Part shown: piece by piece, positions 5,215-52,724 of the stretch
Numbering within the stretch: the first letter of the stretch is position 1
Layout: each line of letters opens with the position of its first letter
From: Isoetes taiwanensis
Lineage: Eukaryota; Streptophyta; Lycopodiopsida; Isoetales; Isoetaceae
Assembly (NCBI GenBank): GCA_021234155.1
Contig: JAJEKV010000031.1
Coordinates: 1,543,614 to 1,607,613, forward strand
Reading direction: 5' to 3'
DNA length: 64,000 bases
The notes under the pieces: model-generated
Told to the model about the DNA's origin: nothing
Seen by the model: the letters and a program-made list of their open reading frames with translations, nothing else
Databases searched by the model: none
Translations under genes and position numbers: made by a program

Positions 5215-5700
5215 TCCAGAAACACCGAGACTTGGCCAGAAACACCACTGGCTTAGCTAGAAACACCACTCATTCTACGAAACACCACTCTTTTGGCGAA
5301 AACACCAAGAATATGGCCGAAACACCAAGAATATGGCTAGAAACACCAACGACCGGCCGGAAACACCATATACCTGGCGGAAACACCACTCAATTGGCGG
5401 AAACACCACTCAAATTGACCGTAAACACCATATGCGGCGTAAACACCACTCTAATTGGCCAGAAACACCATTCAAATGTTCTAGGTATTGTATTCCAATT
5501 GGAGGTTGCAAATATGTGTTCACAACACTTGGTAGAAACACCACTCAATTGGCCAGAAACACCATTTGCATGGCCAGAAACACCACTCAATTGGCCGAAA
5601 CACCACTCAAATTGGCGAAACACCACCTAAATGGCCGAAAACACCACCTAAACGGCCAGAAACACCACTACCTTAAACACCACTCAATGTTTTACATGTT
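5215..5700 (+). repeat. GAAACACC array 1 of the MULE
   Basis: About two dozen degenerate units of 16-24 bp, each with the core GAAACACCA preceded by GGCC, GGCG or GGCCA (for example GGCCAGAAACACCACTCAAT). All point the same way. The array is interrupted at 5478-5520 by a second repeat type (TGTTCTAGGTATTGTATTCC). The same core occurs in both TIRs, so this is an expanded subterminal repeat of the MULE rather than an unrelated satellite. Confidence 0.85.
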
Positions 5701-5905
5701 GTATTCTTGTGGCCAGAAACACCAAGGATGTGGCACTCATATTTCTACAAGGGGTTGCACTCACTTGTTGAAAGTTGCAATTCAAGGTTTTAGATATTGT
5801 ATGGCAACCACTCTTCTCAATGTTTTAGATATTGTATTCCATTTAGAGGTCTCAATGTTCTATATATTGTATTCCAATTATCCTTCCCAATGTTCTAGAT
5901 ACTTG
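5701..5905 (+). repeat. GTTTTAGATATTGTATTCC-type spacer repeats
   Basis: Three or four copies of a phrase resembling CAATGTTTTAGATATTGTAT lie at about 5785, 5818, 5850 and 5890. Similar copies occur at 5478 and, in the right half of the element, at 15528 and 15630. This second repeat type alternates with the GAAACACC arrays, so the two may have been amplified as a composite unit. Confidence 0.65.
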
Positions 5906-6425
5906 GCCAGAAACAACACTAGCTTGGCTTGAAACACCACTGACTTGGCGAGAAACACCACCGCTTGGCGGAAACACCACTCATATTGGCCGGAAACACC
6001 ATATGCCCGGCCGAAACACCCACTCAATTGGCGGAAAAGACCACTCAAATTGGCGAAACACCACCAAAATGGCCACCAGAAAACACCAAGAATATGGCCA
6101 GAAACACCACCACCTTAAACGCCACTCAATGTTTTACATGTTCTATTCCTGTGGCCAGAATCACCAAGGATGTGGCTTGAAACACCACTTTTCTGGCCAG
6201 AAACACCAAAGGTATGGCCAGAAACACCATCTAAATGGCCAGAAACACCAAGAATATGGCCAGAAACACCACCTAAACGGCTAGAAACACCAAGAATATG
6301 GCCAGAAACACCAAGATGTCTGGCAAGTTTCTGGTCATATACTTGGTGTTTCTGGTCATATACTTGGTGTTTCTGGTCATATAGCAGGTGTTTCTAGTCA
6401 TATACTTGGTGTTTCTGGTCAAAGA
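5906..6425 (+). repeat. GAAACACC array 2, with an orientation switch near 6330
   Basis: Same unit as array 1. From 5906 to about 6325 the units read GGCCAGAAACACCAAGAATA. From about 6335 to 6420 they read in reverse complement (TATACTTGGTGTTTCTGGTC, repeated four times). The head-to-head junction near 6325-6340 makes an imperfect foldback. Confidence 0.85.
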
Positions 6426-6608
6426 GACACCATCCATACTTGATTCGCGAGGAATCTTTGTACAAGTCTTCTGTGACATAGTTATGCAATAACTTATGTT
6501 GTAAATCATGGAATAACTACAAAATCTGCTACCATGTTCCAGCCAATCAAGAGTTTAGAAGCCAACACTGTTCAAGAGTTTAAAAGCAAAAGAAAAACAG
6601 AACATTTC
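6426..6608. other. Spacer 3' of the Ulp1 gene
   Basis: Short AT-rich interval between the inverted repeat units and the stop codon of the minus-strand protease gene. It should contain that gene's 3' untranslated region and poly(A) site. No clear AATAAA was identified on the minus strand. Confidence 0.35.
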
Positions 6609-9364: not shown

Positions 9365-9940
9365 TGTAAATTATCTGAGTAGGTCACCACACAGGTTTAC
9401 ACAGAAGATCTCTGATCAGATAATAATGCAAGTGAGAGATACAATGGTTGCAATGGTTAACCATTGGGAATGCATAAGAAAAATGAAATGCATGGTTAAC
9501 CTAGGTTACGATATCATTGAAATAAGTTTGAATGGTCGAAGGTTAAAAGGGCAGAATGAAAATGTTATTGCAGTTGGATAAGAACGGATATTGGAGGGAA
9601 ATGCATCTTCGAATTTATAGAAAGTCCCTGTGAGCAAGGAGGACTGCACACGAGACCCCTGAGCGGCCGGAACCATGCCTTAACGGTAGGATCCGGCCCT
9701 ATAACACAAGAAGTATAGTGATTCATTCTCATTCATATAGACTTGAAGCTGAACTTACGATATGATCCAGTAATGCCGATATGATTCAATTTTGAATATT
9801 ACTTTATTTTCAATGGTTGAATATATGCACATGGTATGCTTCGTGAAGCTTGTTTAAAGATGCATTGATCATATCTATATTTGCAAGTTGCTCTAGTATC
9901 CAAAAAGAAAGATTGTTCTTATTGTATTCAAAGTTTTTCA
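9365..9940 (+). repeat. 5' LTR of copia
   Basis: 576 bp, starts TGTAAATTATCTGAGTAGG and ends CAAAGTTTTTCA. Differs from the 3' LTR by one missing T (CAATGGTTGCAATGG here, an extra T there) and one G/A in CATATAGACTTG. Confidence 0.95.
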
Positions 9941-9955
9941 TTTGGTATCAGAGCC
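9941..9955 (+). promoter_or_regulatory. Primer binding site, initiator-Met tRNA type
   Basis: TTTGGTATCAGAGCC immediately follows the LTR terminal CA. The core TGGTATCAGAGC is the usual plant copia primer site for minus-strand DNA synthesis. Confidence 0.9.
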
Positions 9956-9961
9956 AGAACA

Positions 9962-12961
9962 ATGGCAACAAGGTTTGGTGCAGGATTACTAAGTGCAGTG
10001 CAGGTGTACAATGGTGGTTCTGGTTTCCAGGTGTGGAAAGATCAAATTCAACATATTTTAGATGTTGAGGATCTTTGGGAAATTGTTGATCCCACTAAGG
10101 CAGATGTGGTAGATACTAGTGCAGGTGGCACATCCAGTAATATAGCAGCTGTAGAGTCAGCTGTTGGAGGTGATGATGCTAGTTCTGAGACCTCTGGTGG
10201 TAGGTCTGCTGCAAGGACTGTAGCTGCAGAAAGAGCTGTACAAACAGGAGGCATGCTTTCTACAAAAGTTAAGGAAGCAAGAGGTATAATTACAAGTAAA
10301 GTTGGACCAACAATTCAGCTGAAACTCAGAGGTATGTCTCCTAGACAGATGTGGATTTACATGCTTAAGCACTATGAAAGTAAAACTTCATCACAAATTG
10401 ATGTTTTAGAGAAAGAATTGAGAAATTTGAAATATAATGAAGATGAGGAAGTTTCAGATTTCTTCAATAAGTTTGATAATCTTGTAGCAGATTTAGATGG
10501 TGCAGGAGTTGCTTTGTCTGAAAGGTACTTGGTATTAGCAATTGCTAGAGCAGTAAGCTTTAATCCTCAACTATCTCTTTTGATTAGAAACGTGGCTAAG
10601 AGTAGGGAAGAAGCAGAAAACATGCTAAGAACAGAAATCGAACAGAATAAATTGATGAGGGAAGAAGATAATGCTGCTGAAATTCTATATGCTGGAAGGA
10701 AGAAAAAGCCTCAGGGTGATAAAACAGTTTGTTATAACTGCTATGAGGCAGGGCACATCAAACCAAACTGCCCTAAACTTAAACAGGAGATTATGTGCTA
10801 TAATTGTAAAGGGAAAGGACATATAGCTGCCAAATGTCCTAGTCCAAAGGAAAAAGAGTATGGCAGGGGAAGGGGAAGAGGACGAGATACAAGAGGAAGA
10901 GGATATTTTTCTGGAAAGAGAGGAGGAGCAGCTGGGATACATATCACTCAGGAGAAGACTGAAGTAAAAGAAAAGGAAGAAACAAGTGATGATGAGGTAC
11001 ATTGTATTTGCTCATTAAATACCATTGATTCACAAACTAATGAGAAAAATTCTGTGATTGTAGTTGATAGTGGAGCTGAGAGATCAGTAGTAAGATCTCT
11101 GGATATGCTCAAGGATCAAAAATCAGCCAAATCAAAACATGTGCAAGTAGGGAATGGAGAATTGCAGGCTGTTGAAGGATGTGGAATGTTGCAGCTATTG
11201 GACCTTGATGGAAATGTTGTAAATATTGAAAATGTTCTCTGTGTTCCTAGTTTGATAAAGAATCTTGTTTCAGTATGTCAATTAGTAGATCTTGGTTACA
11301 AAATCTTCTTTGAGAAGAAAATATGTAAGATCTTTATGGAGAATAAACTGAAATTTTTGGCAAGACGTGTTGGAAATTTGTTTCAAATTGAAAATGGCTC
11401 TATTGATGGAATCAATGCAGTAATGTTGACTGATTTGGATACTTGGCATAACAGACTTGCACACACACATTATAATAATGTGAAATTCATGGCAAAACAG
11501 GGACTTATAGCATGCAATGTGGAGGACAATCATAAATGCATATGTGAAGGATGTATGCTAGGCAAGATAACCCGATTGCCTTTTCCAAAAACATGTAAAC
11601 GGGCTGAAGGAGTGCTGGATTTGGTACACACAGATTTGTGTGGCCCTCTAAATGTCAGAGGTAAAACTGGAAAAAGATATTTCATAACTTTTATAGACGA
11701 TCATAGTAGAAAATGCAAAGCATATTGCTTGGCTCGAAAATCACAAGCTCTTGAAGCTTTAAAATTGTATGTTTCAGAAATGGAAAGGCAAACAAACAGA
11801 AAATTAAAGTGCATAAGGTCAGATAGAGGAGGAGAGTATTTATCTGCACAGTTTAGATCTTATTGCATGACAAAAGGAATCAGAAGACAACTGACATGCA
11901 GGTACACACCACAACAAAATGGAGTTGCCGAGAGGAAGAATAGGACATTACTTGATGCAGTTAGATCAATGTTGAAGTTTTCAGGTCTGCCAAATTATTT
12001 GTGGGAGGAAGCTTTGAAAACAGCAATTTATGTGCAAAATAGGCTTCCAACTGCAAGCCTAAAAGGTAATATACCAGAGGTTGTTTGGTCAAACAAAGAA
12101 AATACAGATTATGACATGTTCAAATGCTATGGATGTCTCGGATACATTCATGTGCCAAAAGAGTTGAGGAAGAAGTTGGATAATAAAGCTGAAATAGGAT
12201 ATTTTGTTGGATATGATGAGCAAAGCAAAGCATATAGAATGTTTGTGCCGCTTATGAATAAAATTGTGATAAGTCGTGATGTGGTTTTTGATGAACAAAC
12301 TTATTACAAAGATAGACAGAAGGAAAAAGTAAATAATGATAAGCGGACTGATCAGATGCAAGCAGAAGGATTCAGGGTTGTGGACAATGATGATGACTAT
12401 CAGAAAAATAATGACAAAGGAATGGAGAATACGGAAGAAATGAAAGCAAGCTTAAGTGAAGAAAAAGAGGATGGTGGGAACTTGGACAAATCTGCCAATA
12501 ACAGTACTCAAGATGTGCAGCAAGAAAAAACAAAAAGAAGAAAAACCCAAGTAGAAAAGTTAAAGGAAGATCTACCACTAGCAGAGGGAGAATACGGCAG
12601 ATTAGGTAGTGGAAGAAGCAGACGAATTGAGAAGCTGGCTGAAATACCTGATCAAGAACAAATATTGGCAATTTTAGAAGATTATATTATCCCAACATCG
12701 TATGAAGAAGCAATGAACAGCACTGAAAAAGATCTGTGGATCCAGGCAATGAAGGAGGAGATAAAGTCTTTTAATCATACTGGTACATATGATGTTGTAC
12801 AAAAGCCAGAAAATACAAACATTGTAGGAAATAAATGGATCTACAGAATTAAGACAAATAGTGATGGCTCAAAAAGATTCAAAGCAAGATTAGTAGCTCG
12901 GGGTTTTCGGAAAGAAAGGGAAAGATTACAACGAGATTTTCTCTCCAAAGGGTTAAATTGA
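9962..12961 (+). CDS. Copia gag-protease-integrase and start of RT
   Basis: Start ATG at 9962 follows the primer site closely. Residue positions are relative to it. The gag domain has LRNLKYNEDEEVSDFFNKFD (about 155-175). Two CCHC knuckles are present, CYNCYEAGHIKPNC (about 257) and CYNCKGKGHIAAKC (about 279). The aspartic protease motif is VVDSGAERS (about 368). Integrase has its His/Cys pre-domain HNRLAHTHYNN...CICEGCMLG, then Asp in VHTDLCGPL, Asp in IRSDRGGEY and Glu in NGVAERKNRT. The RT begins at SYEEAMNSTEKDLWIQAM with WIYRIK and KARLVARGF. The frame leaves the expected RT sequence after KARLVARGF near 12910 and ends at 12961. The rest of RT continues in other frames, so this copy is not a single open polyprotein as sequenced. 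Confidence 0.92.
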   Translation: MATRFGAGLLSAVQVYNGGSGFQVWKDQIQHILDVEDLWEIVDPTKADVVDTSAGGTSSNIAAVESAVGGDDASSETSGGRSAARTVAAERAVQTGGMLSTKVKEARGIITSKVGPTIQLKLRGMSPRQMWIYMLKHYESKTSSQIDVLEKELRNLKYNEDEEVSDFFNKFDNLVADLDGAGVALSERYLVLAIARAVSFNPQLSLLIRNVAKSREEAENMLRTEIEQNKLMREEDNAAEILYAGRKKKPQGDKTVCYNCYEAGHIKPNCPKLKQEIMCYNCKGKGHIAAKCPSPKEKEYGRGRGRGRDTRGRGYFSGKRGGAAGIHITQEKTEVKEKEETSDDEVHCICSLNTIDSQTNEKNSVIVVDSGAERSVVRSLDMLKDQKSAKSKHVQVGNGELQAVEGCGMLQLLDLDGNVVNIENVLCVPSLIKNLVSVCQLVDLGYKIFFEKKICKIFMENKLKFLARRVGNLFQIENGSIDGINAVMLTDLDTWHNRLAHTHYNNVKFMAKQGLIACNVEDNHKCICEGCMLGKITRLPFPKTCKRAEGVLDLVHTDLCGPLNVRGKTGKRYFITFIDDHSRKCKAYCLARKSQALEALKLYVSEMERQTNRKLKCIRSDRGGEYLSAQFRSYCMTKGIRRQLTCRYTPQQNGVAERKNRTLLDAVRSMLKFSGLPNYLWEEALKTAIYVQNRLPTASLKGNIPEVVWSNKENTDYDMFKCYGCLGYIHVPKELRKKLDNKAEIGYFVGYDEQSKAYRMFVPLMNKIVISRDVVFDEQTYYKDRQKEKVNNDKRTDQMQAEGFRVVDNDDDYQKNNDKGMENTEEMKASLSEEKEDGGNLDKSANNSTQDVQQEKTKRRKTQVEKLKEDLPLAEGEYGRLGSGRSRRIEKLAEIPDQEQILAILEDYIIPTSYEEAMNSTEKDLWIQAMKEEIKSFNHTGTYDVVQKPENTNIVGNKWIYRIKTNSDGSKRFKARLVARGFRKERERLQRDFLSKGLN

Positions 12962-13067
12962 CAAGTCTAAGAGTGATTTTAGCAATTGCAAATGCATTGA
13001 ATCTAGAATTGCATCATATGGATGTGAAAACGGCTTTTTAAATCTCGACCTTAAGGAGGATATCTTC
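12962..13067 (+). pseudogene. Copia RT segment with frame breaks
   Basis: The RT continues here with the recognisable block LRVILAIANALNLELHHMDV (about 12967-13026) in a different frame from both neighbours. Breaks are near 12910-12950 (GAAAGAAAGGGAAAG and CCAAAGGG) and at the T-run GGCTTTTTAAATC (about 13033). All are small indels next to homopolymers, so assembly errors are as likely as true mutations. Confidence 0.85.
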
Positions 13068-14249
13068 ATGAAGCAGCCTGCAGGTTATGAAGATAATATT
13101 TCAAGTGTTTGGAAGTTAAGAAAAGCAGTGTATGGGCTGAGGCAATCACCCAGGGAATGGTATTTTTGCATAGACGGTTTTTTAAGAGCACAAAGATTTG
13201 AGAGATTGCAAAATGATGGCAACTTATATAAATTTAAAGATGGAGAGAATTTTTGCTTGATTGCCTTATATGTAGACGACTGTATAATGATGTCTAATAA
13301 TCAGAGAACTTTAGCCCAGTGCAAAGGAATATTGAAAAACAGGTTTGAAATGACGGATCTTGGAGAGTTGAGGCAATTTTTGGGAATTGAGGTATGGAGA
13401 GACAGGGCAAGAGGTGTTCTGACACTAAAGCAAGGAAGGCATGTACAGAATATGCTAAAAAGATTTCATCTACAAGATGCCAAAGCAGCAAAAACACCAA
13501 TTGTGGCTGGTCACAAATTAACTGATCATATTCAGACAGATGCAGATATAAAAGGAATGGAAAATATTCCATACAGGGAAATCATAGGTTGCTTGCTCTA
13601 TCTATCAAACAATACGAGACCTGACATTTGTTATTCAGTTAATGTTCTTAGCAGATATTGTAGCAATCCAACCAGAATGCATTGGGAAGCAGCAAAGCAT
13701 ATATTAAGATATCTTAAAGGGACTGAAAACTATGGGATCACATTTACCTCCGATGATCTAAATCTAAATAGCTATAGTGATGCAGATTGGGGAGGGGACA
13801 GAAGCACAAGAAAGTCTACCTCTGGATATGTTGTTTTTCTTGGAGGAGGAGTAATTACATGGAGAAGTAAGAAACAAAACGCTGTAGCTATGTCATCAGC
13901 TGAAGCGGAATATGCAGCTAGTTCATTGTTATCTAAAGAACTTGTCTGGTTGAGAAGATTGTTGGAAGAACTTGGCTTTAAACAAAATCAGCCAACTGTG
14001 ATTATGACTGATAGTATGAGCTGCATAGCAATTGTAAAAAATCCTGTGCAACATGAGCGAACTAAACACATTGAACTAGATGTTCATTTTATTCGAGACA
14101 TGGCAGAAAAAGGATACATACAAATGTGTTATGTTAACACAAATTTGCAGATTGCTGACATATTTACAAAGGCTTTAGTTGAAAAGAAGTTTACAGGTTT
14201 CAGAGATAAGCTAAAAGTTGTCAACCTGTGTGTTGAAGGAGGAGTGTAA
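13068..14249 (+). CDS. Copia reverse transcriptase and RNase H
   Basis: Continues RT with MKQPAGYED, WKLRKAVYGLRQSPREWY and the catalytic ALYVDDCIMM (about 13262-13290). DLGELRQFLGIEV follows. RNase H has YSDADWGGDRSTRKSTSGY (about 13770-13830), AMSSAEAEYAA (about 13890) and MTDSMSCIAI, and the usual copia terminus KHIELDVHFIRD...IADIFTKAL. The stop TAA at 14247-14249 lies inside the first bases of the 3' LTR (TGTAA), a compact arrangement. Start coordinate is the first Met of this frame; the true protein begins upstream. Confidence 0.92.
   Translation: MKQPAGYEDNISSVWKLRKAVYGLRQSPREWYFCIDGFLRAQRFERLQNDGNLYKFKDGENFCLIALYVDDCIMMSNNQRTLAQCKGILKNRFEMTDLGELRQFLGIEVWRDRARGVLTLKQGRHVQNMLKRFHLQDAKAAKTPIVAGHKLTDHIQTDADIKGMENIPYREIIGCLLYLSNNTRPDICYSVNVLSRYCSNPTRMHWEAAKHILRYLKGTENYGITFTSDDLNLNSYSDADWGGDRSTRKSTSGYVVFLGGGVITWRSKKQNAVAMSSAEAEYAASSLLSKELVWLRRLLEELGFKQNQPTVIMTDSMSCIAIVKNPVQHERTKHIELDVHFIRDMAEKGYIQMCYVNTNLQIADIFTKALVEKKFTGFRDKLKVVNLCVEGGV
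14235..14244 (+). promoter_or_regulatory. Polypurine tract of copia
   Basis: GAAGGAGGAG directly precedes the TG of the 3' LTR and serves as plus-strand primer in reverse transcription. It overlaps the last codons of the RNase H frame. Confidence 0.85.
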
Positions 14250-14821
14250 ATTATCTGAGTAGGTCACCACACAGGTTTACACAGAAGATCTCTGATCAGA
14301 TAATAATGCAAGTGAGAGATACAATGGTTTGCAATGGTTAACCATTGGGAATGCATAAGAAAAATGAAATGCATGGTTAACCTAGGTTACGATATCATTG
14401 AAATAAGTTTGAATGGTCGAAGGTTAAAAGGGCAGAATGAAAATGTTATTGCAGTTGGATAAGAACGGATATTGGAGGGAAATGCATCTTCGAATTTATA
14501 GAAAGTCCCTGTGAGCAAGGAGGACTGCACACGAGACCCCTGAGCGGCCGGAACCATGCCTTAACGGTAGGATCCGGCCCTATAACACAAGAAGTATAGT
14601 GATTCATTCTCATTCATATAAACTTGAAGCTGAACTTACGATATGATCCAGTAATGCCGATATGATTCAATTTTGAATATTACTTTATTTTCAATGGTTG
14701 AATATATGCACATGGTATGCTTCGTGAAGCTTGTTTAAAGATGCATTGATCATATCTATATTTGCAAGTTGCTCTAGTATCCAAAAAGAAAGATTGTTCT
14801 TATTGTATTCAAAGTTTTTCA
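14245..14821 (+). repeat. 3' LTR of copia
   Basis: 577 bp, near-identical to the 5' LTR (two differences seen). Ends TTTTTCA and is followed by the target duplication AACAC (14822-14826). Confidence 0.95.
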
Positions 14822-14972
14822 AACACCTTACCCTTAGTCAACACATTATGAAATCATCATTTCCATTTGAGATTTGAAAGTTACAATTCAATATTCTATA
14901 CATTTTCAGGTTGTCATTTCCAGCTGAGATTTTTAATTATTAATAAGTTGCAATTGAGATATTGTGGATTGC

Positions 14973-15506
14973 CAGAAACACCATAAAATTGGCCAGAAAC
15001 ACCATGCCTGGTCAGAAACACCAATGGCTGGCCATAAACAACATGCCTCAGGCCTTCCCCATGCTAGTGGCCAGAAACACCATGCCTCTGGCCAGAAACA
15101 CCAATGTCTGGCCAGAAACACCATGCCTCCGCCGAAAACACCATTGCTAGTGGCCGAAACACCATGCCTCCGCCGTAAACACCATTGCTAGTGGCTAGAA
15201 ACACCAATGTCCGCCGGAAACACCATGCCTGCGCCGTAAACACCATTGCTAGTGGCCGAAAACACCATGCTTCGCCGAAACACCATTGCTAGTGGCCGAA
15301 ACACCATGGCTCGGCCAGAAACACCATGCCTCGCCGAAACACCAATGTCGGCCGAAACACCATGCCTCGGCCGAAACACCAATGTCCGGCCGAAACACCA
15401 ATGTTCGGCGGAAACACCATGCCTCGCCGTAAACACCATTCCTCCGCGCCAAACACCATGCCTCTGGCCAGAAACACCATGCTTATGGCCAGAAACACCA
15501 TGTCCT
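14973..15506 (+). repeat. GAAACACC array 3 of the MULE
   Basis: About 25 units, same core as arrays 1 and 2 but with different spacers, mostly GAAACACCATGCCTCNGGCC or GAAACACCATTGCTAGTGGC (17-22 bp). Spacer homogeneity within the array points to local amplification. GTTTTAGATATTGTG-type repeats follow at 15525-15660, as in the left half. Confidence 0.85.
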
Positions 15507-15984
15507 TGTGGCTAGAGTTGCAATTCAATGTTTTAGATATTGTGTTCCAATGTTCTTAGCATTATTAAGTTATCAATTCCAATTGAGATTTATGATTAAT
15601 AATTGGTTGCAATCGGGATCTTGTGAATTGCAACTTAATGTTTTAGATATTATGTTCCAATTATATGTCTCAAGATGTAAAACCCCGCAACTCCATGTTG
15701 GGTTGCAAATTTGGCATTCACAATATTTATCTACACTATGTCAATGGGATGGCTCTATAACATTTGTATCCTGTGGCCAGAAAGACTTAGCCCATGACCA
15801 GAAATACCTATGGCTAGAAATACCAGGTATTGTCCTGAAACACCTACCACATTGGCATGGCCAGAAAAACCATACCCACACTACCGGATTTGCTCACGCC
15901 TGTGGGGAATGCAATCCCATTTGAATTTGGCGGGGGTACAATCATAACCCTGGATTTAATGCACCTGGCAACCGCGCGGTTCAG
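15507..15984. other. MULE right subterminal region
   Basis: Holds two copies of the GTTTTAGATATT(G/A)TGTTCCAA repeat (about 15530 and 15638), scattered decayed GCCAGAAA(C/T)ACC units (15777-15880), and an ACCGCGCGGT palindrome at 15971-15980. No gene seen. Confidence 0.5.
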
Positions 15985-16310: not shown

Positions 16311-18620
16311 CTGCATAAAAATTGTTAATAAGTTAATGATTTTTTCTGTCAAGTATATTGCCAATGCACAAAGACTTGCCAAAACGTTTTCTGACAATAA
16401 AAATAATCATCACATTATTACTAGAGGGATGATTACACAATCTTATCCACATCTATGAAATACAAATGGGCACATATATAAGTGTCTATTATTTACCAGC
16501 AACAAGTTGCATCGTTGTAGAACAGAGTTTACACTGGCAAAGGCTGATAATTTCAAAAGAATTGGCACACTCTCCATTATATAGTGAAAACTTAAAGCTG
16601 CTCTGCTTCAATAGTTCTGTATAGTCTGCAAAAGAGATATCAATTATACAGAACTTATAACTGTATGTCCCTTTTGCTATACAGAACTATTCACGCATAG
16701 CGAGACACTTATAGCAATGTCTGAATCTAGAACACTTACAAAAATACACCAGATATTACTAATTTAAAAGGAGATGATATAAAAAAATTTCTCTCCTGAT
16801 CAACTTTCAGTATGTCTGTTAAAATGGCTCAGTGAATGTCTGCCATGGTTAGTAAAGCAAATAGCCAATGCAAATGAAATGCCAAAAAGTGTCAAACCTG
16901 CAAATGTTGACAGGAAAGTCCTTCATTATCCTGAAAACCCCAACATATGCCCAATGTTTACAAGTTAGATTGGAGCTATGAAGACAGTGGTGTATTTCTC
17001 TGCTTGATCTAACAAAGAAAGGCATGTATAGTGACTTCTTCCAAAACACACAAATGCATTTGCCTTATGTAACATGCTGCCAAAGAAGCCATGAAGTGAT
17101 TCAATTACACAAGTCAGACAATCAATCATACAAATCAGACAATAGGCACATGCTTCCTCTCAATCTCAATCTTTCATAAACATTCTGAAGTTGTTTATTC
17201 CATAAAGCCAAAGATGTATCCTCTCCTTGATATAACAAAGATAGGCATACCGGAAGAGCTTCTGGCAGGGGCAATAGAAGGGGAACAAAAGATCTATGGA
17301 GTGCATCACGCCTAGCTCTGTTAGTTAGACGGTTTCAGAGAGGCCGCCCATCAACTGGTTTGAAATACTGGTTATATCAAATGTACCGCTTTGAAATATG
17401 ATCTGGTGCTCGTACATGGAAATACTCAAGAAGTATTAAATCTACATAGACAAAAGCTACAGCTATAATGAGTGTCAAATGCAAACTTTGAAAAAAATCT
17501 GAAAGGCAAAAGCGAGAAGATTGCACATTTCAGAAGAGTGCCAAATTGTGCAATGCAGTGAAAGTGAAAGATTGCCTATTTGAGAATATACCTCATAATA
17601 TCCTTGAGGGCGATAGTGCCAGAATCCAACCTAGATTGTAGAAGCATCTGTAGAGCTCAGTAGCTAAAGCTCGTGCTTTCTTTTATAGGAGGACTTTCAA
17701 CATATAGTTTTATGTTTTATCTCAAGCATTTGAGCTAAGGGGTCTAAAGCTCCGAATGGGCAAAAAGCCGATGAGCGCTTGTCGGGTGCAAAAGAACCAG
17801 AACCCTTAACGGACCTATACTTATCTTTTCTTTGTAATGATTTTCAACGGCTAGAACATTTATCAAGACCGAGGCTGAAGCTTGAGCTCCAATTCAAGTG
17901 TAGGCGAGCCGAGCTGAGTTGAGCAAATTGGACTCTCGTCAATTCCTTGAAACACCAGGACAACCATGTGGTGCCGATTAGCCAATTTGCACATTGGCCA
18001 CCCAGCAACACTGGCGACCTCCAGTTTACAGGCAACAATACAATAAGGCAACAATAAGTTTGGAGCAGTTTCCGACATATCCTAGGCATATTCCAGCATA
18101 TACTTAGGATATGCCAGAAACCCACATGAGCAAGCTAGGGGAAACCCACAAAGTACTGGTTTTTTAAAAGAAGTAAAATCTAACAACATAAAAAGCTAAA
18201 GCATTTATAAACCAACACCTCATTCGCAACATGGGTTTCTCATATTTCATTTAGAGAATATTATTAATTTCAATTTAAATACTTTGTCTGGTACATGTTT
18301 TCCCAATGAGAAATTGAACCCGAGCCTAATACTGCCCATGCCTACTGTTGCATCTTTTTGCTAGTTATTTTCTTTGTGCTTAACACTGTGCACTTGTTAT
18401 TGGTTAGATAGAAATGATTTTCTTACCCACTTCACATCAAAAATTACTTAATCCTGACATTCCAATGGAACTGCAAAGTTTAAAACCATTCAAACACCAT
18501 ATTTCCTTGTTTTAACTATGGGGTTGGATTTGTTCTCCAATAATGTGGCCGAAATTTGGAATCATATTTTTGTAACCTAAGGTTTTTAATGGTGTAAATG
18601 GGTATTCATATGTAAGTATA
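16311..18620. other. Spacer, possible APO intron and upstream region
   Basis: Mostly AT-rich non-coding sequence. The first bases form the acceptor of the APO exon. A TTATAcAGAACTaTtCACGCATAG/ATAACTGTATGTCC segment near 16630-16700 has short inverted repeats of CTATACAGAACT. No upstream APO exon, RNA gene or transposon end was recognised. Confidence 0.35.
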
Positions 18621-18839
18621 TTATTTTGCTGATGGTGGCAGTGTGGATTCGAAACCCTGGAATGTAGGCCGAGCATCTTGTGCCCGTTTGGCCAGAACTG
18701 GTAGGTTGCTCCAGGGATGGCGGAGCTGCTGAGGCCGGAGGTTCTTATGTGTCCTGCCTCTGGGCTTGTTGCTTTTTTTGGGTTTTCGGATAAGCAGGGG
18801 TCGGGTTGTTTGGTGGGGAGCGGAGGTGGAGTCTTCGCG

Positions 18840-18905
18840 AAGGGGATTTTGTGCCCGAGGTAAGCTGGCTGTGTTCTTGCCTTTGTTTTTGTCTGTAATT
18901 TCCTG
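18840..18905 (+). other. Possible 5' intron of the Rep gene
   Basis: GCCCGAG|GTAAGCTGG looks like a plant splice donor and is followed by a T-rich stretch just before the ATG at 18913. The 52.6 kb relative keeps GCCCGAG|GTAATTTTC and the ATG block but with a shorter T-rich stretch between. Either a short 5' intron or an open upstream coding extension would fit. Confidence 0.3.
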
Positions 18906-18912
18906 CCACATT

Positions 18913-19946
18913 ATGTCTCTGAAGAGGGCAGCGAGAAAGGGGAAGAGTGTTGGTTGCTTTGTCCCTGGTTCTCTGAGCCACATTATAAACCTGAGTTCTT
19001 CCAATTCCCAAGAACGTGAGACCGGGGGATATGGTGGTTTTTCTGTTGAGCAGGACTGGAATGTTATAGATGTGAGTGTTACCTTAGGTCTGTCTGGGCA
19101 AGATGTGCCCATGAGTTTTTATGATGGTCTTGTGGGGTTTTGCAATCGGAGGTGTGTTGCTGGAGCTGTGGCCATGGAGCGTGGTGCTACTGTAGATCAT
19201 TTGCATTCTTCTCAGGCTGTGTTTAGAGCCCGGTTTAAAAGTCCTAGGGCCATGAATGATGCCGTAAAAAGAAATTTCAATTGGGTTTCTAAGCCTCCTG
19301 GTGTGATATTGGTATGCAAAGCCCTTAAAAATACTCGTCTTCATTGTTTTGAGGGTATGATTGGGTACTGTATGAAGGATGTGGGAAAAGTTCATTATAT
19401 ATGCCATCTTCATAATGTGAGTGAGGCTGCCATCGAGAAAGGTAAGGATTTGTATTTGAGATGGGGAGCTGGTGATACCAAAAATTTAGTTGTGCTTGAT
19501 GACAAAAACTTGTTGAATCGAGCTGCCCATTTCGTGAATTACCACGGGAACCGTAGATTGACTGCTAGTTTGTTGTATACACTGGCCAGGATGATTCGTT
19601 CTGGAAAATTTACCTTGTCTAGTTCTTGGATTATCCCTTCTAACACTGCCCATATCAATGAGCACCATGTCCGGGCTGCGTGTTGCTCAATCCTAGTCAC
19701 TGCATGCCATCGGATATGAGGACCATTTTGTTTGGCCTGTCAGCAGGTTTTGTACCTGTGGAAAGGAATGGGCCTGGGAGGAGGCGGTATTGCGATGATG
19801 CTATTCCTGCTAATGAACAAGATAATAACTTCGAGGATATTCATGATGCTTCTTATAGTGGAGACAGTGATGATGTTGTGATTCTTCAGCCTGGTGTAGA
19901 TTTCATCCCTGTGCACAAGGGTGATCGTACCATGGCTGTTGGGTGA
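18913..19946 (+). CDS. Rep-like HUH endonuclease, one frame break
   Basis: Rep/HUH proteins nick single-stranded DNA and attach covalently through a tyrosine to start rolling-circle replication or transposition. Start ATG at 18913 (CACATTATGTCTCTG), the block also conserved in the 52.6 kb copy. Residues from there: a strand DWNVIDVSVTLG (about 47-58) in the position of motif I; motif II in MERGATVDHLHSSQAVFRAR (about 88-107), HLH being the metal-binding His-U-His; then PPGVILVCKAL and motif III GMIGYCMKDVG (about 148-158), where Tyr is the candidate nucleophile and Lys-Asp follow as in Rep YxxKD. A later region reads LLNRAAHFVNYHGN. One frame change near 19678 shifts the reading from HHVRAA to LLNPSHCMPSDM, after which it runs to a stop at 19944-19946 with an acidic tail. 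No helicase (Walker) domain is present. A start upstream of 18913 is possible because the frame is open to 18766. Confidence 0.75.
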
Positions 19947-20019
19947 TGAACTTGGTTGCCTCTTCATTGTACAGTTGGGTTTGTTTTCATAGCTTTGTTT
20001 GTTTTTAGTTGCAGAAGTT

Positions 20020-20388
20020 ATGGAGACTGATGGGGAACCAGTTGCTGGCGTGGAGCAACCTGCTGTGTCCTTGCCTGAGTCTTTTATTTCATCTGCTGTA
20101 GAAGCATCCCATCCGGACCCTGTTGTATTCTCAGCTGAGCCTGAGGCAGCATTTTCTGCTCAGGAGTTCGTGAATAGTGTTATCCAGGTTGGAACTGAGG
20201 CACATAGGATTGCGACATCCTTGCGCTTGCTTAGGCGGCAGCTTAGAGGGTTTTATGTGTCAATTGACAATGCCATATCTGTTGTGGAGTGGGAGCATTT
20301 GGGAGTGCCCGTTTCTGAGTTGCACATCTTGCGCTCTCATATGAGCCTTGCGCGAGGGTCTTGCTTGTGCAAGAAATACAGCAACTAG
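20020..20388 (+). CDS. Second ORF or 3' exon of the Rep element, unknown function
   Basis: 122 residues from ATG 20020 (METDGEPVAGVEQ...) to a stop at 20386-20388. Acidic, Ala/Glu/Pro-rich N-terminus, then a helix-rich part (GTEAHRIATSLRLLRRQLRG, then VEWEHLGVPVSELHILRSHM). A TTTTTAGTTGCAG acceptor sits just upstream (20003-20014), and the frame is open across it, so it may be spliced onto the Rep frame that ends at 19946 rather than being a separate gene. I recognise no domain. Confidence 0.5.
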   Translation: METDGEPVAGVEQPAVSLPESFISSAVEASHPDPVVFSAEPEAAFSAQEFVNSVIQVGTEAHRIATSLRLLRRQLRGFYVSIDNAISVVEWEHLGVPVSELHILRSHMSLARGSCLCKKYSN

Positions 20389-20519
20389 ATGCAGTTATTA
20401 GGCATGCACAAAGTGGCTCGGCTATGAACTGATATCTTTACATGTTCTTCTTCTGTTGGCTTGTGATTTTGTGTGTGGAGTTGATAAACCTTGATCTGGA
20501 TTTCTATTGCTGAAATAAT

Positions 20520-20735
20520 AGGTATGGTTTGCTTCTAAATAACGTGTTCAATAAGTTTGAGCAGGCTGCAATTGGTTAACAGGTATGGTTTGCTGGTTCT
20601 GAAATTGGTTGTGGTAAATGCTTGTAAATGTGACGTGTTGAACAAGTTTCAGCAGGCTGCAATTGTTTAACAGAATTGTCTATTGTAAATATGACATGTT
20701 CAATGAGTTTGAACAGCCTGCAATTGTTTAACAGA
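20520..20735 (+). repeat. Imperfect tandem repeat in the Rep element 3' region
   Basis: Three units (about 61, 90 and 61 bp), each running GTGTTCAATAAGTTTGAGCA then GGCTGCAATTGGTTAAC or close variants, ending near 20580, 20670 and 20731. Repeated subterminal blocks could be Rep binding sites (inference). Confidence 0.7.
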
Positions 20736-20798
20736 ATTGTGTATTGAAATGATATACTGGTACTGACTTGTTTGCTTTGTTAGTGGGCTTCGACCCCT

Positions 20799-20840
20799 AA
20801 GCATACTAGACATCCCTCTTGTGGGATACCTAGTATGCTT
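20799..20840 (+). repeat. 42-nt hairpin near the 3' end of the Rep element
   Basis: AAGCATACTAG (20799-20809) pairs perfectly with CTAGTATGCTT (20830-20840). Inside the loop ATCCC (20812-20816) pairs with GGGAT (20823-20827). HUH transposons commonly use hairpins at their ends for recognition. Confidence 0.85.
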
Positions 20841-20842
20841 GG

Positions 20843-20886
20843 ATGAGCGTCGGAACTTATACTGGGGTTCGACTCCCCGGGCTCAT
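20843..20886 (+). ncRNA. tRNA-like T-arm and acceptor structure
   Basis: ATGAGC (20843-20848) pairs with GCTCAT (20881-20886). Inside, TGGGG (20863-20867), loop TTCGACT (20868-20874) and CCCCG (20875-20879) form a canonical T-arm with an RNA polymerase III B-box-like core GGTTCGACTCC. The remaining 14 nt are too short for normal D and anticodon arms, so it is not a tRNA gene. The 52.5 kb copy keeps the same T-arm with the closing pair T-A instead of T-G. Confidence 0.6.
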
Positions 20887-20910
20887 TGTTTGTCTGGTCA
20901 AACTTTCAAA

Positions 20911-22054
20911 ATTTAAGATTTTTTTTATGCTCTATTTTTTTCACCTTTTCCCCTTTTTGACATGCAGAGCTCAAGCGGGTCCAAAATAGAGCTTCTCCAT
21001 TTTTTGTTTTGAGGTTCCACAGATCACGATTGCTCAGAAGACAAGCTTTGTGATTCGTGGTAGATTGTGCACATAGGTTTTGTGGTTCTCTTAGATTGCT
21101 CAGATAGAGACTGCTGCTGCAAGCATATTTTTTCTCCATCTGTTACTTTGAATGCTATGGGCGATGAAGCTCCAATAGCAGCTTAAGGTACGAATCTTTT
21201 ATTTCTTTCAAATCTCTCTTGAACTTATGGGCATGTTTATTGGTTTTAGATCAAGGATTAAATATCATATCGTTTTTTCTGTGTCTACGTTGCCGTAGTT
21301 CATTGTTTCTAAATAGGTTTTTAAAACCGTCCTTATATACTTGTCAACGGTCCTTTAAAGGCCCGATTATGGACCTGACACACCAGTCTCTCGCTTCTGC
21401 TAAATATCAAGGCTGCAGAGCAACTTTTGCTGCAACAAACGCTATACAGATCCTTCGAAATCCTTATCTGAAGCTCTTAATTATGAGAACTAGAAATTAA
21501 AGAAAAAATCCATTGCATTTACAAACTCCAACTCTGGATAAAACCTTAAAAAACAAGATCTATTCGATTTGAGTTAGGAAGCCTCAAAATCCATCGGTCC
21601 CAACTATCCGACAGGTCTAGTAACAGACGTGCCACTTGTAAATTTGAGTGCCATCTGGCCATGTTACAATGATTCTGCATGTTGATAATTTTTGCAACTG
21701 TTGCTATTTCATCCAACTACTATTATTTTCTGCAACTGTTGCTATTCTCTTTAGCTGCTACTATTTGATGGTTATATCCTAAACTACCATATTCAAAACT
21801 CTGGATGAAGTCATATTCGAGCCATTTTGAGCTACGCCATATTTCTCTTGTCCCCCAGCCTTAAGTTTTGTTAGTTTCATGTATCATACTTGAAAGTTTG
21901 TTCCTCCTATTCCTCATGTGCTTTTGTTTTTCAGAAAAAATAAATTACTATTTTTATTCTTTCAATCGTATCTCTATCTCATGATGCAGAAGGAGACAAG
22001 AAAAAATAAGCTTTATAAGATTTTTAACAAAAAGAAAAACTAATATATGAAATA
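20911..22054. other. Spacer between Rep element and LINE
   Basis: AT-rich, with repeated CTGCAACTGTTGCTATT phrases near 21690-21760 (two copies of a roughly 40-bp unit). A short open frame at 21219-21500 has no recognisable content. No gene called. Confidence 0.35.
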
Positions 22055-22560: not shown

Positions 22561-23397
22561 ATGTTCTTGAATGCAGGAGCCATACACACAGGCCTGATGC
22601 TCAACTCTGGTTTATTCCAGCAACAGGGGATGCCACAGCATGAGATTAGCGGTCTTTTGGCAAATCTGAATCTTGTAATGATGAAGCTTATGGATACCAT
22701 GGAGCAAATGCGGAAGGAGGCAGCAAGCAGAGAATTGGAGGCAACAAGAAAGGGATCTGAATTGGTAAGTGCATTACGTAAAATCTCTAGTTCTTTATCT
22801 GAAGTTCAGCAGGATAATAGATTATTGAAAGAAGAGTTTGCAGCCATGAGAGCAGAAATGAAGCACGAAAATCAGAAGTTGAGGGATGAAATTACTAGTT
22901 TGAAAGAAAGGGAAGATGAGAATGAGACTGATGACGATGATGAAGAGGAGGATGATTCGGAAACAGTGAAAGAGGTAGTTAATAAATTGAACACACGCAT
23001 GAATGATATTCTGGAAATGCAAGAACGGAGTAAGAGAGCACTAAACTTGAGAGTTGCGGGTTTGCCTGAAGTGGAAAATGAGAACACAAAGAGTGAAGTG
23101 GCGCGCCTCTTTTCATCGCAAATGGGACTGGAAGGGATTGAAATTGAGGACGCTTTCAGAGCAGGTATGAAAGGGGAAAAACCACGAAATATAGTAGTTA
23201 AGTTTTCGAACCGCGCTAGTAGAGTTCAGGTGCTCCAGAAAAAGATGGAATTGAAAGGAAAAAATATCTGGATCAATGAGGATTTAACAAAAGAACAATA
23301 TGAAAGTCATAAGCTGGAAATTGAAAAATTCAAAGCAGCAAAGCAAAGCAACAAGAGGGTGTTCTGGAAGAATGGGAAGGTGCAGGTCTCAGACTAG
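22561..23397 (+). CDS. LINE ORF1, coiled-coil RNA-binding protein
   Basis: 278 residues from ATG 22561; the frame is open upstream to about 22410 without an ATG, and an earlier ATG at 22280 lies in another frame. Residues 30-120 are a long helix with heptads (LMDTMEQMRKEAASRELEAT, LKEEFAAMRAEMKHENQKL), then an acidic run ETDDDDEEEDDSE (about 122-134). From about 145 an L1 ORF1-type RNA-binding fold follows: RSKRALNLRVAGLPE, FRAGMKGEKPRNIVVKFSN, LKGKNIWINEDLT and FKAAKQSNKRVFWKNGKVQV. In L1 elements ORF1 trimers bind element RNA. It ends 21 bp before ORF2. Confidence 0.85.
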   Translation: MFLNAGAIHTGLMLNSGLFQQQGMPQHEISGLLANLNLVMMKLMDTMEQMRKEAASRELEATRKGSELVSALRKISSSLSEVQQDNRLLKEEFAAMRAEMKHENQKLRDEITSLKEREDENETDDDDEEEDDSETVKEVVNKLNTRMNDILEMQERSKRALNLRVAGLPEVENENTKSEVARLFSSQMGLEGIEIEDAFRAGMKGEKPRNIVVKFSNRASRVQVLQKKMELKGKNIWINEDLTKEQYESHKLEIEKFKAAKQSNKRVFWKNGKVQVSD

Positions 23398-23418
23398 GGA
23401 ATAGAGGCCATCAGGGTT

Positions 23419-24015
23419 ATGGCGTGGAACGTTAATCAGTTGAGCATTGACAAAATATATTCGATGGGGGATGTGTTAGCAACAGTTGATCTAGTATTCT
23501 TTTTAGAAACATGGGAGCATGAAGAATTTGGTCTACCTGATATACATGGATTTAATATCCTACATTCAGTTTGGAACATGAAAGGATGGAGAAGAAGAGG
23601 TTTTGGGGGAGTGGCTTGTTACATACGGCAGGAGTTGTCACATCTAGTTAAAATGGTGAAGGATTCTAAACAATGCATCTGGGTAGAATTCTTGGGAAGA
23701 GAACGCAGGGTTTTTATTGCAGGTTGCTATTTCCCTCCTCTAAAACAGCAAACATACCAGTTGTATAATTTAGACATGGATGATCCGTTCCAAATGCTTG
23801 AGCAGGAGATTTCAGGTTTTATGGAACTAGGAGAGGTGGTGCTTATGGGGGATTTCAATGGGAGAACAGCAGGGAAACAAGCAGCAGTTTCAAGTGAGCA
23901 TGGAGACCCGCTTTGGATGGAGCAACTAGACACACAAGAGTTATGTGACATTGGATGGGACCGTATATCATTAGATACGGGTCAGTGGTCAACACTATGG
24001 GCACTGCCTTGCTGA
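23419..24015 (+). CDS. LINE ORF2, endonuclease part (5' frame)
   Basis: Starts MAWNVNQLS, the WN motif of AP-type endonucleases. Catalytic Glu in LVFFLETWEHEE, then GVACYI, VFIAGCYFPP and the Asp/Asn motif VLMGDFNGR (about residues 141-149). Nicks target DNA to prime reverse transcription. The frame runs into a stop at 24013-24015, and the rest of the domain continues in another frame after a one-base change near 23970-23985 (LDTG then SVVNTMGTALL). Confidence 0.88.
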   Translation: MAWNVNQLSIDKIYSMGDVLATVDLVFFLETWEHEEFGLPDIHGFNILHSVWNMKGWRRRGFGGVACYIRQELSHLVKMVKDSKQCIWVEFLGRERRVFIAGCYFPPLKQQTYQLYNLDMDDPFQMLEQEISGFMELGEVVLMGDFNGRTAGKQAAVSSEHGDPLWMEQLDTQELCDIGWDRISLDTGQWSTLWALPC

Positions 24016-26732
24016 ACATGTGTAGTGGTTTGAATTTGTTGTTGTACAATGGGATTAGAAATTTCCCGGAGAGCTCCAAATGCACATGCAGGGGGAAGAG
24101 TATAGTAGACTATTTCATTGTAGCAGCACATTTTAGGGAACAAGTGATCTCGTTGCTGGTGCTAGATGAGAGGAGTGAATCCGACCATGTACCTGTGATT
24201 GCCTCTATTTTAGCAGCAAGTCATCTTCCAGAAGCAATTAAGGAGGATAGAGATGTGGAAAGAATATACGTGACTGGCCGGAAAGAGGAAGCATACCTTG
24301 ACATGTTTGAACTGAAATATGGACAAACAGTATGGCCTGAAGGGGTAGATGGGATAAGCACCACATTGACATCTTTAATTACTACCACCGCAGCATGCTT
24401 TAGCTCAAAGCGCAGACAGAAAGGGTTACCTTGCAATGGTTGGTTTGACAATGAATGCAAAGAAAAGAGGAGGCAATATAAAAGAGCAACAGGGGCAGCC
24501 AAGGCACAACTGATCAAAGAGTTTAAAACTCTTACAAAGGCTAAAAAGCGGGCCTTCCTGCGGTGCAAACAAGAAGAGATGGTGAGAGATTTGTTAGTGG
24601 ACCCTTTTAAGTTCTGGAAGAAGATCAAACAAAGCATACATAAGGAAATTCCTTTGCAGTCGGAGGACTTGATAAATATGGTGAGAAAATTGTATCATGT
24701 TGAAGGATTGCAAGAGGCAGTACATGAAAGGAAATGCTTATTGCATATCTCGGAGGATGAGGTAAAAGATGGGCTTGATAAACTGGCAAACAGAAAAGCG
24801 GCTGACTCCACGGGGTTAGTGGCCGAGCTTTTAAAGTGGGCAGGAACTAAAATGGTAGAGGTGCTTACACGGATGTTCAATGCAGCATTACGAGATGGCT
24901 TTCCTTCATCGTGGCAGGTCAACCGAGTGGTACCAATTTATAAGGCAGGGGATAGAAAAGATCCGGGTAACTACAGAATGATTATGGTTAGTAACTTGTT
25001 TGCAAAATTGTATGCCACAATCATAGAGCGCAAAATCAGCAGTTGGGCAGAGAAACATGATGTCAGGGCCAAAGGGCAAGCAGGATTTAGGCCTCGGAAA
25101 TCCACAATTGATCACCTTGTCACTTTTCGTGCTATGATAGATGCTGTGAAGGGGACACGTAAACCACTTTTTGCTGCGTTTGTAGATTGCACCAAGGCCT
25201 TTGATACGGTCTGCAGGGGGAACCTTTGGGATAGTTTGGAACGGACAAATATTCCAGAAGAGTATAGAGATGCGGTAAGACTGCTCTATGAGAAAGTGTT
25301 GGTTAAACTCTCTAGACCCTTTAGTGAGGAGTGTAATGAGGTAGTGCTCAGCAACATTGGAGTCAAGCAGGGCTGCCCCATGTCTCCGACCCTCTTTGGG
25401 ATATTCATAGATGAATTGGAGGAGTGGATACAGAACATGGGAGGAGATGGGACCCCATTGGCTGGATATGTTATTCTTGTGCTCTTGTATGCAGATGACG
25501 TTGTGCTGATTGCTAGGAGCAAGGAGGGGATGCAAAAACATTTGAATGTTTTAGCCGCTTTTTGTGATGCCAAGGGTTTGAGGGTGAATCTGGACAAAAC
25601 TAAAGTGGTGATCTTTGGGACCACCTTGGATAAGAATTATACTTTTTCATATAAAGGTAACCCTGTGGAGATCTCCACGTCCTACAAGTACTTGGGGCTT
25701 GTGGTAGATAAAAACTTTAGATGGAACCAAACGGTAGAGCAGAGGGTAAATGGAGGGCTTAAAGCCTTCTTTGCAATGCAGCGGAAATGTGTAAAGGCTA
25801 ATGTTTGGAGCTTCGGGTTGAAGAGGATGTTATTTAAGACGTTGGTGCAGGCGGTGGTGCTATATGGTTGCGAAGTATGGGGGCCGGGGCTTTCATTGGA
25901 GCTGTGGCAAAAGATTGAAAAGGTGCAAAAGAAATTTTTTCATGCCGAGTTAGGAGTCAAAATGCAAACTCCTTATGAGATGATGTTGGCTGAATGCGGT
26001 ATGATGCCATTGGAGTGTGAGGCTATATGCCAATTCTTAACCTATTTGTGCAAAGTAGGTAGCCTGGATGAAAACAGTTATCCTCGATTGGCTCTAAAGG
26101 AGACATTTGACAAGGGGTGGTATGCAGATGGTATGGTCTGGTTGAGGAAGTGGGGGATAAGCATAGAAGATCTGGAGCATAATAAGGGCAAGATTCGAGA
26201 ATGGGTTGTTGAGACAGTTATGCGGAGGGTATGGTCTAGACCAGGTACGAAGATGACACACTACCGGACTCATATGAATCCTTCCCTACGGGAGATGGAT
26301 TACTTGAATGCAAACATCTCGACCAAGAAGAGGCATGTCATTTGCAGGATGAGATTGAGCGCGCACCACTTGGGTGTGGAGGTAGGCAGATGGATGAGTA
26401 TAGCACGTGAACACAGGGTGTGTCGAGCTTGTGGTTCAAATAAAGTTGAGGATGAAGCACACGTAATTCTGGAGTGTCCAACATATCAGACACTAAGAGA
26501 CAGGTTTGGCATTAGAGTCGATGACCTGGGAACCTTTTTTCGTCTCCCAGCGACTCGTATTGCAAGTTTTCTCATAGATTTACTACAAATCAGAGATACA
26601 ATGGTAAAGATATCTAAAGGGATAATTGATGAGGAAGAGGAGAGTGAGCTTGAGGATGAGCCTCTCTTTTCTGAGGGCTCATTACACGATAATGTTTTTA
26701 ATTTTGAGCATGTTTTTCTTGACGTCTCATAG
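23955..26732 (+). CDS. LINE ORF2, endonuclease end, reverse transcriptase and zinc finger
   Basis: Completes the endonuclease with SIVDYFIVA and the His motif SESDHVPV (about 24175-24195). The reverse transcriptase carries LANRKAADSTGLVAELLKW, NYRMIMVSNLFAKLYA, GQAGFRPRKSTIDHLVTF, FVDCTKAFDTV, GVKQGCPMSPTLFGIFIDEL and the catalytic LLYADDVVLIAR (about 25480-25510). The thumb has YKYLGLVVDKNF and VLYGCEVWGP. A CCHC-type finger CRACGSNKVEDEAHVILEC lies at about 26420-26480, then an acidic tail. The domain order and length fit plant L1 ORF2. The start given is the first Met of this frame; the true protein continues from the 23419 frame. Confidence 0.93.
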   Translation: MGPYIIRYGSVVNTMGTALLNMCSGLNLLLYNGIRNFPESSKCTCRGKSIVDYFIVAAHFREQVISLLVLDERSESDHVPVIASILAASHLPEAIKEDRDVERIYVTGRKEEAYLDMFELKYGQTVWPEGVDGISTTLTSLITTTAACFSSKRRQKGLPCNGWFDNECKEKRRQYKRATGAAKAQLIKEFKTLTKAKKRAFLRCKQEEMVRDLLVDPFKFWKKIKQSIHKEIPLQSEDLINMVRKLYHVEGLQEAVHERKCLLHISEDEVKDGLDKLANRKAADSTGLVAELLKWAGTKMVEVLTRMFNAALRDGFPSSWQVNRVVPIYKAGDRKDPGNYRMIMVSNLFAKLYATIIERKISSWAEKHDVRAKGQAGFRPRKSTIDHLVTFRAMIDAVKGTRKPLFAAFVDCTKAFDTVCRGNLWDSLERTNIPEEYRDAVRLLYEKVLVKLSRPFSEECNEVVLSNIGVKQGCPMSPTLFGIFIDELEEWIQNMGGDGTPLAGYVILVLLYADDVVLIARSKEGMQKHLNVLAAFCDAKGLRVNLDKTKVVIFGTTLDKNYTFSYKGNPVEISTSYKYLGLVVDKNFRWNQTVEQRVNGGLKAFFAMQRKCVKANVWSFGLKRMLFKTLVQAVVLYGCEVWGPGLSLELWQKIEKVQKKFFHAELGVKMQTPYEMMLAECGMMPLECEAICQFLTYLCKVGSLDENSYPRLALKETFDKGWYADGMVWLRKWGISIEDLEHNKGKIREWVVETVMRRVWSRPGTKMTHYRTHMNPSLREMDYLNANISTKKRHVICRMRLSAHHLGVEVGRWMSIAREHRVCRACGSNKVEDEAHVILECPTYQTLRDRFGIRVDDLGTFFRLPATRIASFLIDLLQIRDTMVKISKGIIDEEEESELEDEPLFSEGSLHDNVFNFEHVFLDVS

Positions 26733-52187: not shown

Positions 52188-52447
52188 ACATCATTGCCCA
52201 AACATTAAAAATAATGGGTCCTTAATGTTGGCCAAATGTAACATTTGAGCCAACATGAATGCCCAAACAAACACGGCCGGTCCCTTCGGTCGTGTTTGTT
52301 TGGGGTGTCTATAGATTTTGGCCATCGAATGCTGGCATATCTCACAACATATGCCATGGGGCAGAATTCCAGCCCTCAAGTGCAAGTCAAGGTGGGGTCA
52401 AAACCCACATATTTGACTTACCCCTAACATTCCACTAAACCATTGAA
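52188..52447. other. Two strong hairpins between the tandem repeat and the Rep derivative
   Basis: GTTGGCCAAATGT/ACATTTGAGCCAAC at about 52228-52255 (one bulge), and CCCAAACAAACACG (52262-52275) with CGTGTTTGTTTGGG (52291-52304). They may be ends of a small DNA transposon; GTTTGTTTGG-type termini are common in plant MITEs. Confidence 0.5.
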
Positions 52448-52724
52448 TAAATACAATATCTCAAAATTAACAGCTTGACCAAATAAAAAATTATGAGCCT
52501 GGGGAGTCGAACCCCAGTAGAAGTTCCTAGCGCATGAAGTGGAATCCATTTTGGAGAATGAACCTAGAGCACATATCACATATGGGTTTTGTTGAGATAA
52601 CATAGAACAGGGCCGTGCACTCTTCAGAGACATAATGTGGCGTGAACACAAATAGAAAATTACCTCGGGCACACATCCCCTTCGAAGAAGACTTCGGTTT
52701 CTTCGATTTGACAAGATGCCCGGC
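52448..52724 (-). mobile_element. Internally deleted copy of the Rep/HUH transposon
   Basis: On the minus strand it shows, in the same order as the 18.6-20.9 kb unit: GGGCATCTTGT (about 52720), GTCTTCTTCGAAGGGGAT then GTGCCCGAGGTAA, the 20-bp block CCACATTATGTCTCTGAAGA (52640-52621, identical to 18906-18925), then after about 100 bp of linker the tRNA-like tail CTACTGGGGTTCGACTCCCC ending GGCTCAT (52493), and a TTTGGTCAA block. Nearly the whole Rep frame and the 42-nt hairpin are missing. It keeps the start codon region and the 3' structure, as expected of a non-autonomous derivative. Confidence 0.7.
52493..52536 (-). ncRNA. tRNA-like structure in the deleted Rep copy
   Basis: Same T-arm as at 20863-20879 (TGGGG TTCGACT CCCCA). 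The T-G closing pair of the other copy is a T-A pair here. The outer acceptor-like stem is weaker (ATGCGC against GCTCAT). Confidence 0.5.

Follow-up and report, generated by a model that had tools for sequence, protein, structure and literature searches.

The stretch of DNA analysed here, a contig segment of 64,000 nucleotides referred to below as the window, almost certainly contains a decayed copy of a Replitron with two ORFs from Isoetes taiwanensis. Replitrons reportedly received their name only in 2023, in work by Craig in PNAS, and are said to have a single catalytic Tyr and no helicase. The group is therefore already known, and the find is one more Replitron, a member of a large family carried by a non-seed plant; its second gene and its manner of insertion may be partly new. 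One published review describes Replitrons in non-seed plants, lycophytes included, and gives a length range of 0.9–4 kb, short terminal direct repeats of 5–11 bp and, as a possibility, target duplications of 2–8 bp produced by insertion (PMC10741241). With at least 150 HUH domains, some copies still intact, selection on a second ORF, apparently non-autonomous relatives, usable empty sites and a published host genome, the Isoetes family permits direct testing of Replitron target choice and of the stop of copying.

As shown in Table 1, the copy in the window has a complete 5' end and a truncated 3' end, and its limits are set by homology to fetched copies, which starts at window positions 18,537–18,541 in 15/20 of them and extends no further than 20,928 in any of the 20. 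The sequence-only reading had bounded the element at 18625..20910, and these limits had to be moved outwards on both sides. The copy is dead, with both ORFs frame-shifted and the 3' end cut.

Table 1. Replitron features in the window, with positions counted from its first base.
Feature	Position	Strand	Basis or remark
Replitron copy with complete 5' and truncated 3' end	18541..20928 (end approximate)	+	homology to fetched copies
5' terminus TAATGTGGCCGAAAT	18541..18555	+	copies align from here, flanks differ
ORF1, putative transposase, up to the frame-change stop	18913..19719	+	ATG conserved among copies at 18,913
Replitron HUH domain, PF21859	19075..19455	+	ORF1 residues 55–181, E 8e-20
HUH motif His-Leu-His	19198..19206	+	DHLHSSQAVF; His codons at 19,198 and 19,204
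YCMKD block, presumed catalytic Tyr	19366..19380	+	54–56 residues after the His codons; Tyr is residue 152
Rest of ORF1 in shifted frame, ending AVG and stop	19680..19946	+	intact copies run into the same sequence
ORF2	20020..20432	+	frame shifted near 20,355 in the window copy; C-terminal portion read in a different frame
Three tandem copies of a 61-base repeat	20531..20743	+	repeat listing, family D13
Subterminal hairpin AAGCATACTAG...CTAGTATGCTT	20799..20840	+	fold and covariation
Arm ATGAGC...GCTCAT closing GGGG-TTCGACT-CCCC	20843..20886 (inner 20,864–20,878)	+	consensus structure of 28 sequences
Second Replitron copy, internally deleted, another subfamily	52299..52693	-	identity over 52,299–52,527: 88% with L028, 87% with L027

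The translation of 18,913–19,719 matches the Pfam family PF21859 (Replitron_HUH) over profile positions 1–127 of 128, scoring 71.9 bits where the cut-off is 28.5; up to E 10, the scan of this frame gave no other family, and no viral Rep family in particular. The lack of a helicase domain, noted in the sequence-only reading, held for the ORFs scanned, where Pfam returned no helicase family. PF21859 is likewise found at near full length in three intact copies and in the two divergent relatives L059 and L060, while Replitron_C (PF21860) has a weak similarity in the three intact copies (13.3–15.2 bits against a cut-off of 27) and was not found by Pfam in L059 and L060. A search of a set of 5.8 billion proteins, at E ≤ 0.01 and then at 0.1, gave no relative elsewhere; the viral contigs searched held no confirmed relative; the PDB search with ORF1 gave five matches, every one at E ≥ 0.88; PHROGs gave weak unnamed matches only; and NCBIfam assigned no family to the four proteins submitted. 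The structure predicted from the sequence of the window protein alone has a mean pLDDT of 31.8, which makes it unusable as a model.

The open frame around ORF1 spans 18,766–19,719. Its His-Leu-His and YCMKD blocks, first noted as lying 50–60 residues apart, are present at the distance given in Table 1, and the Tyr, earlier numbered 151, is shifted by one residue. Both HLH and Y-x-[ML]-K-D are retained in 23/23 sequences (20 fetched copies, the window copy and two divergent relatives, with L009 and L019 being duplicates of one insertion by their common flanks), and each sequence has only one Y-x-[ML]-K-D block; in L021 the motif continues differently from the rest of the set. The extra residue in DHLHSSQ occurs in the window copy only, the remaining 22 sequences reading DHLH-x-Q. 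The frame change suspected near 19678 is real and lies near 19,680, since 10 of the 18 copies listed (20 fetched) read through to a single stop, giving 339–345 amino acids ending in VG; the other listed copies are broken or altered. The summed dN/dS of ORF1 is 0.198 over 66 pairs of 12 sequences, with single pairs reaching 1.03; the pairs, like those of ORF2 below, are not independent. Judged by its sequence, ORF1 of the intact relatives encodes a one-tyrosine HUH endonuclease, the catalysis being putative.

The family is large. A protein search of the genome gave 4,214 first-look candidates, and 143 of the 143 matches scored reached E ≤ 0.001; the Pfam model gave 2,165 candidates, and 150/150 scored domains were over the cut-off, compared with 0/14 control genomes. 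These counts, together with the E value of 8e-20 for the window copy, speak against a chance match; 143 and 150 are both lower bounds on copy number. Four relatives (L030, L037, L045, L053) have nothing but the end regions in common with full copies and, from this layout, look non-autonomous. The second, deleted copy that had been noticed at 52.5 kb was recovered on the minus strand, where the main segment is accompanied by two pieces, 52,616–52,641 and 52,660–52,693, that match the 5' leader. The earlier proposal of a Rep/HUH transposon in a plant nuclear genome is thus borne out by PF21859, by at least 143–150 copies, by their common 5' end and by the relatives reduced to end regions.

Two other origins were weighed against that of a transposon. 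In the Rep proteins of CRESS-DNA viruses, the HUH motif precedes YxxK, and the Isoetes element has its HUH and YxxKD motifs in this Rep-like order and spacing, as would an old captured Rep gene from a plant single-stranded DNA virus; such a capture is nevertheless very improbable, since Replitron_HUH is the sole Pfam family above cut-off, no viral Rep family and no helicase is matched, the viral contigs lack a confirmed relative, and the element is integrated in many copies with a 5' end in common. The purifying selection on ORF1 and ORF2 might point to a domesticated host gene of Replitron origin, but the selection spans a multicopy family, which is expected of an active transposon, and in the window copy both ORFs carry frame shifts and the 3' end is truncated, so that domestication is scarcely credible.

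At the 5' end, the base preceding the terminus is A in 25/28 junctions (A|TAATG), a count from which L019 was left out because it duplicates L009, L005 because it lies at the same place as L012, and C919a, C919b and C985 because the 5' end is unreadable in the first two and unclear in the third. At the 3' end, most relatives extend some 200 bp beyond the break of the window copy at ~20,928; copies with this end preserved reach CACCCCAAATGATAAT, often followed by ACACCCCAAAT. The 16-base 3' motif has 150 exact matches genome-wide, and the reversed pattern has none. Thirty loci, picked for reaching at least this motif, represent 29 distinct sites, of which 11 end exactly at ACACCCCAAAT, while the rest mostly stop earlier or differ, one site having a further unit; the 3' end is therefore loose in the motif-chosen set, while the 5' end is fixed. 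Five bounded copies, with limits set by the analyst, measure 2,432–2,480 bases, which is inside the Replitron range (L009 was left out, its 3' limit being guessed). As a candidate terminal direct repeat, TAATGTGGCCGAAAT and TAATACACCCCAAAT agree in 10/15 bases, a weak score that is equalled elsewhere within the last 390 bases. In L015, L020, L021, L023, L024 and L025, a direct repeat of the 5'-terminal sequence precedes the hairpin; L020 has an exact second occurrence of the first 15 bases, 364 bases ahead of the end of the examined stretch.

The terminal structures that the sequence-only reading had expected exist as the 3' motif and as a 3' hairpin with an adjoining arm. DNA folding of 20,780–20,890 gave z -4.5 for the window strand and z -4.7 for the complement, and no fold was obtained for the 5' end (z 1.17). 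In the consensus of 28 sequences, 3/34 pairs are changed on both sides (in 6, 5 and 7 sequences), all of them within the hairpin; the ATGAGC...GCTCAT arm is nearly invariant in these sequences, and covariation is thus no test of its pairing. The TTCGACT arm resembles a tRNA T arm and a Pol III B box, and the B-box pattern was found in 23 of the 30 motif-chosen loci. A true tRNA at this place was considered and rejected, with ARAGORN predicting 0 genes and Rfam giving 0 matches at the gathering score; sub-threshold matches, such as one to tmRNA at 20,864–20,878 (8.9 bits, the gathering score being 47), were all that appeared, and the arm is kept as a likeness.

ORF2, first described as an accessory ORF, gains weight from selection and from its homologues in two divergent relatives. 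Its summed dN/dS is 0.225 (11 sequences, 55 pairs), with single pairs up to 1.92, and by this sequence measure it is under purifying selection, with dN/dS of about 0.2. Homologues stand behind ORF1 in L059 and L060 (E 1e-8 and 3e-8), relatives with a transposase identity of 46% and 42%. The Pfam search with ORF2 of L017 gave no match, ORF2 of L059 gave a DA1-like match below threshold (14.2 bits against 25), and the PDB search with ORF2 gave no solved relative. ORF2 most likely encodes a helper protein or contributes, by alternative splicing, a part of the transposase. That it is simply the last exon of the transposase, with no separate gene, is quite conceivable, if somewhat short of probable: an acceptor-like TTG[CT]AG is conserved directly before ORF2 in 16/21 main-family sequences, and an in-frame donor AAGG|GTGAT is present in those copies that were listed, but the intact copies all have the ORF1 stop codon, L022 is without the donor GT at the position used by others, and the divergent L059 has a TTGTAG acceptor without an in-frame donor within 60 bases. 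ORF2 of L059 (1632–2060) and of L060 (1598–2077) carries IVISDESED and IVITDSSED, respectively, which are candidate SUMO-interacting motifs by their pattern.

Insertion was studied by searching the joined flanks of 12 paired copies, which gave 446 first-look candidates, of which 40 were scored; these yielded empty sites for four copies, and the 40 scored matches held none for the remaining 8/12. Compared with the empty sites, the element replaces about 4–7 target bases in L015 (five sites), about 11–15 in L030 (four sites) and about 6–10 in L045 (two sites), the ranges reflecting bases common to element and target. Target duplication was found at 0/3 resolvable sites (L015, L030, L045), and L020 is ambiguous. 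A GAA pair flanking L045 was considered as a duplication and rejected, being already present in the empty target. Ten of these 11 empty targets have A|T at the point of the 5' junction, and the remaining one (L069) has A|C. By the analyst's reading, C1007 and C1044, which lie inside tandem repeats, look loss-free and speak against a general rule of target loss, and some of the 12 paired copies have short matches from flank to flank. Paralogues compared as empty sites may differ for other reasons. In three empty sites, 11/15 bases are like TAATG, a sample too small to use.

Compared with known Replitrons, the Isoetes element has the same named HUH domain family, one catalytic-type Tyr motif and no helicase found, and it is similar in being about 2.4–2.5 kb long, in its many copies and in its lycophyte host. 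It differs in having target losses at the three resolvable empty sites instead of duplications of 2–8 bp, in its variable 3' end, in a C-terminal domain below the Pfam cut-off and in the unclear state of the 5–11 bp terminal direct repeats (10/15 at best); the second conserved ORF is a possible further difference. Helitrons are characterised by an HUH transposase fused as Rep-helicase, two Tyr, insertion between A and T, a subterminal 3' hairpin and TC...CTRR ends. The Isoetes element shares with them the HUH transposase, the insertion between A and T and the subterminal 3' hairpin; unlike them, it has no helicase domain in the ORFs scanned, one Tyr motif, another Pfam family and no TC...CTRR ends.

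A mechanism can be proposed from these features. The ORF1 enzyme would use its Tyr to nick the transposon strand at A|TAATG, the fixed 5' end, and would remain joined through this residue during the displacement of one strand. The 3' region, comprising the hairpin, the T-arm-like arm and ACACCCCAAATGATAAT repeats, may mark the stop of copying, loosely, and the 3' ends would therefore be variable. The displaced strand would then be joined to the target at A|T by copy-and-paste, with repair perhaps costing a few target bases. More broadly, the quillwort Replitrons might be two-gene elements with a conserved partner protein, which insert at A|T with target loss in place of duplication and carry a T-arm mimic followed by repeats as a loose strand-transfer stop, and which would have an integration mode of their own among Replitrons, closer to that of Helitrons than in the published account. 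This wider view is put forward tentatively and is less likely than not; the insertions that look loss-free and the lack of an in-frame donor in L059 lower its odds.

Other repeats are found in the window. A Copia-like LTR retrotransposon occupies 9365–14629 and holds two long frames; its end repeats, 9,365–9,747 and 14,245–14,628 (families D6, D16), are 100% identical, which indicates a recent insertion. It is flanked by arrays at 5215–6431 and 14964–15808 with a unit of ~20 bases around GGCCAGAAACACCA, partly inverted at 6,327–6,421. A LINE-like element at 22561–26732 has, as read from the translations, a coiled-coil first frame followed by endonuclease-like and reverse-transcriptase-like frames. 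At 39619–40083, an inverted repeat has 142-base arms that are 95% complementary and 181 bases apart, like a small foldback element.
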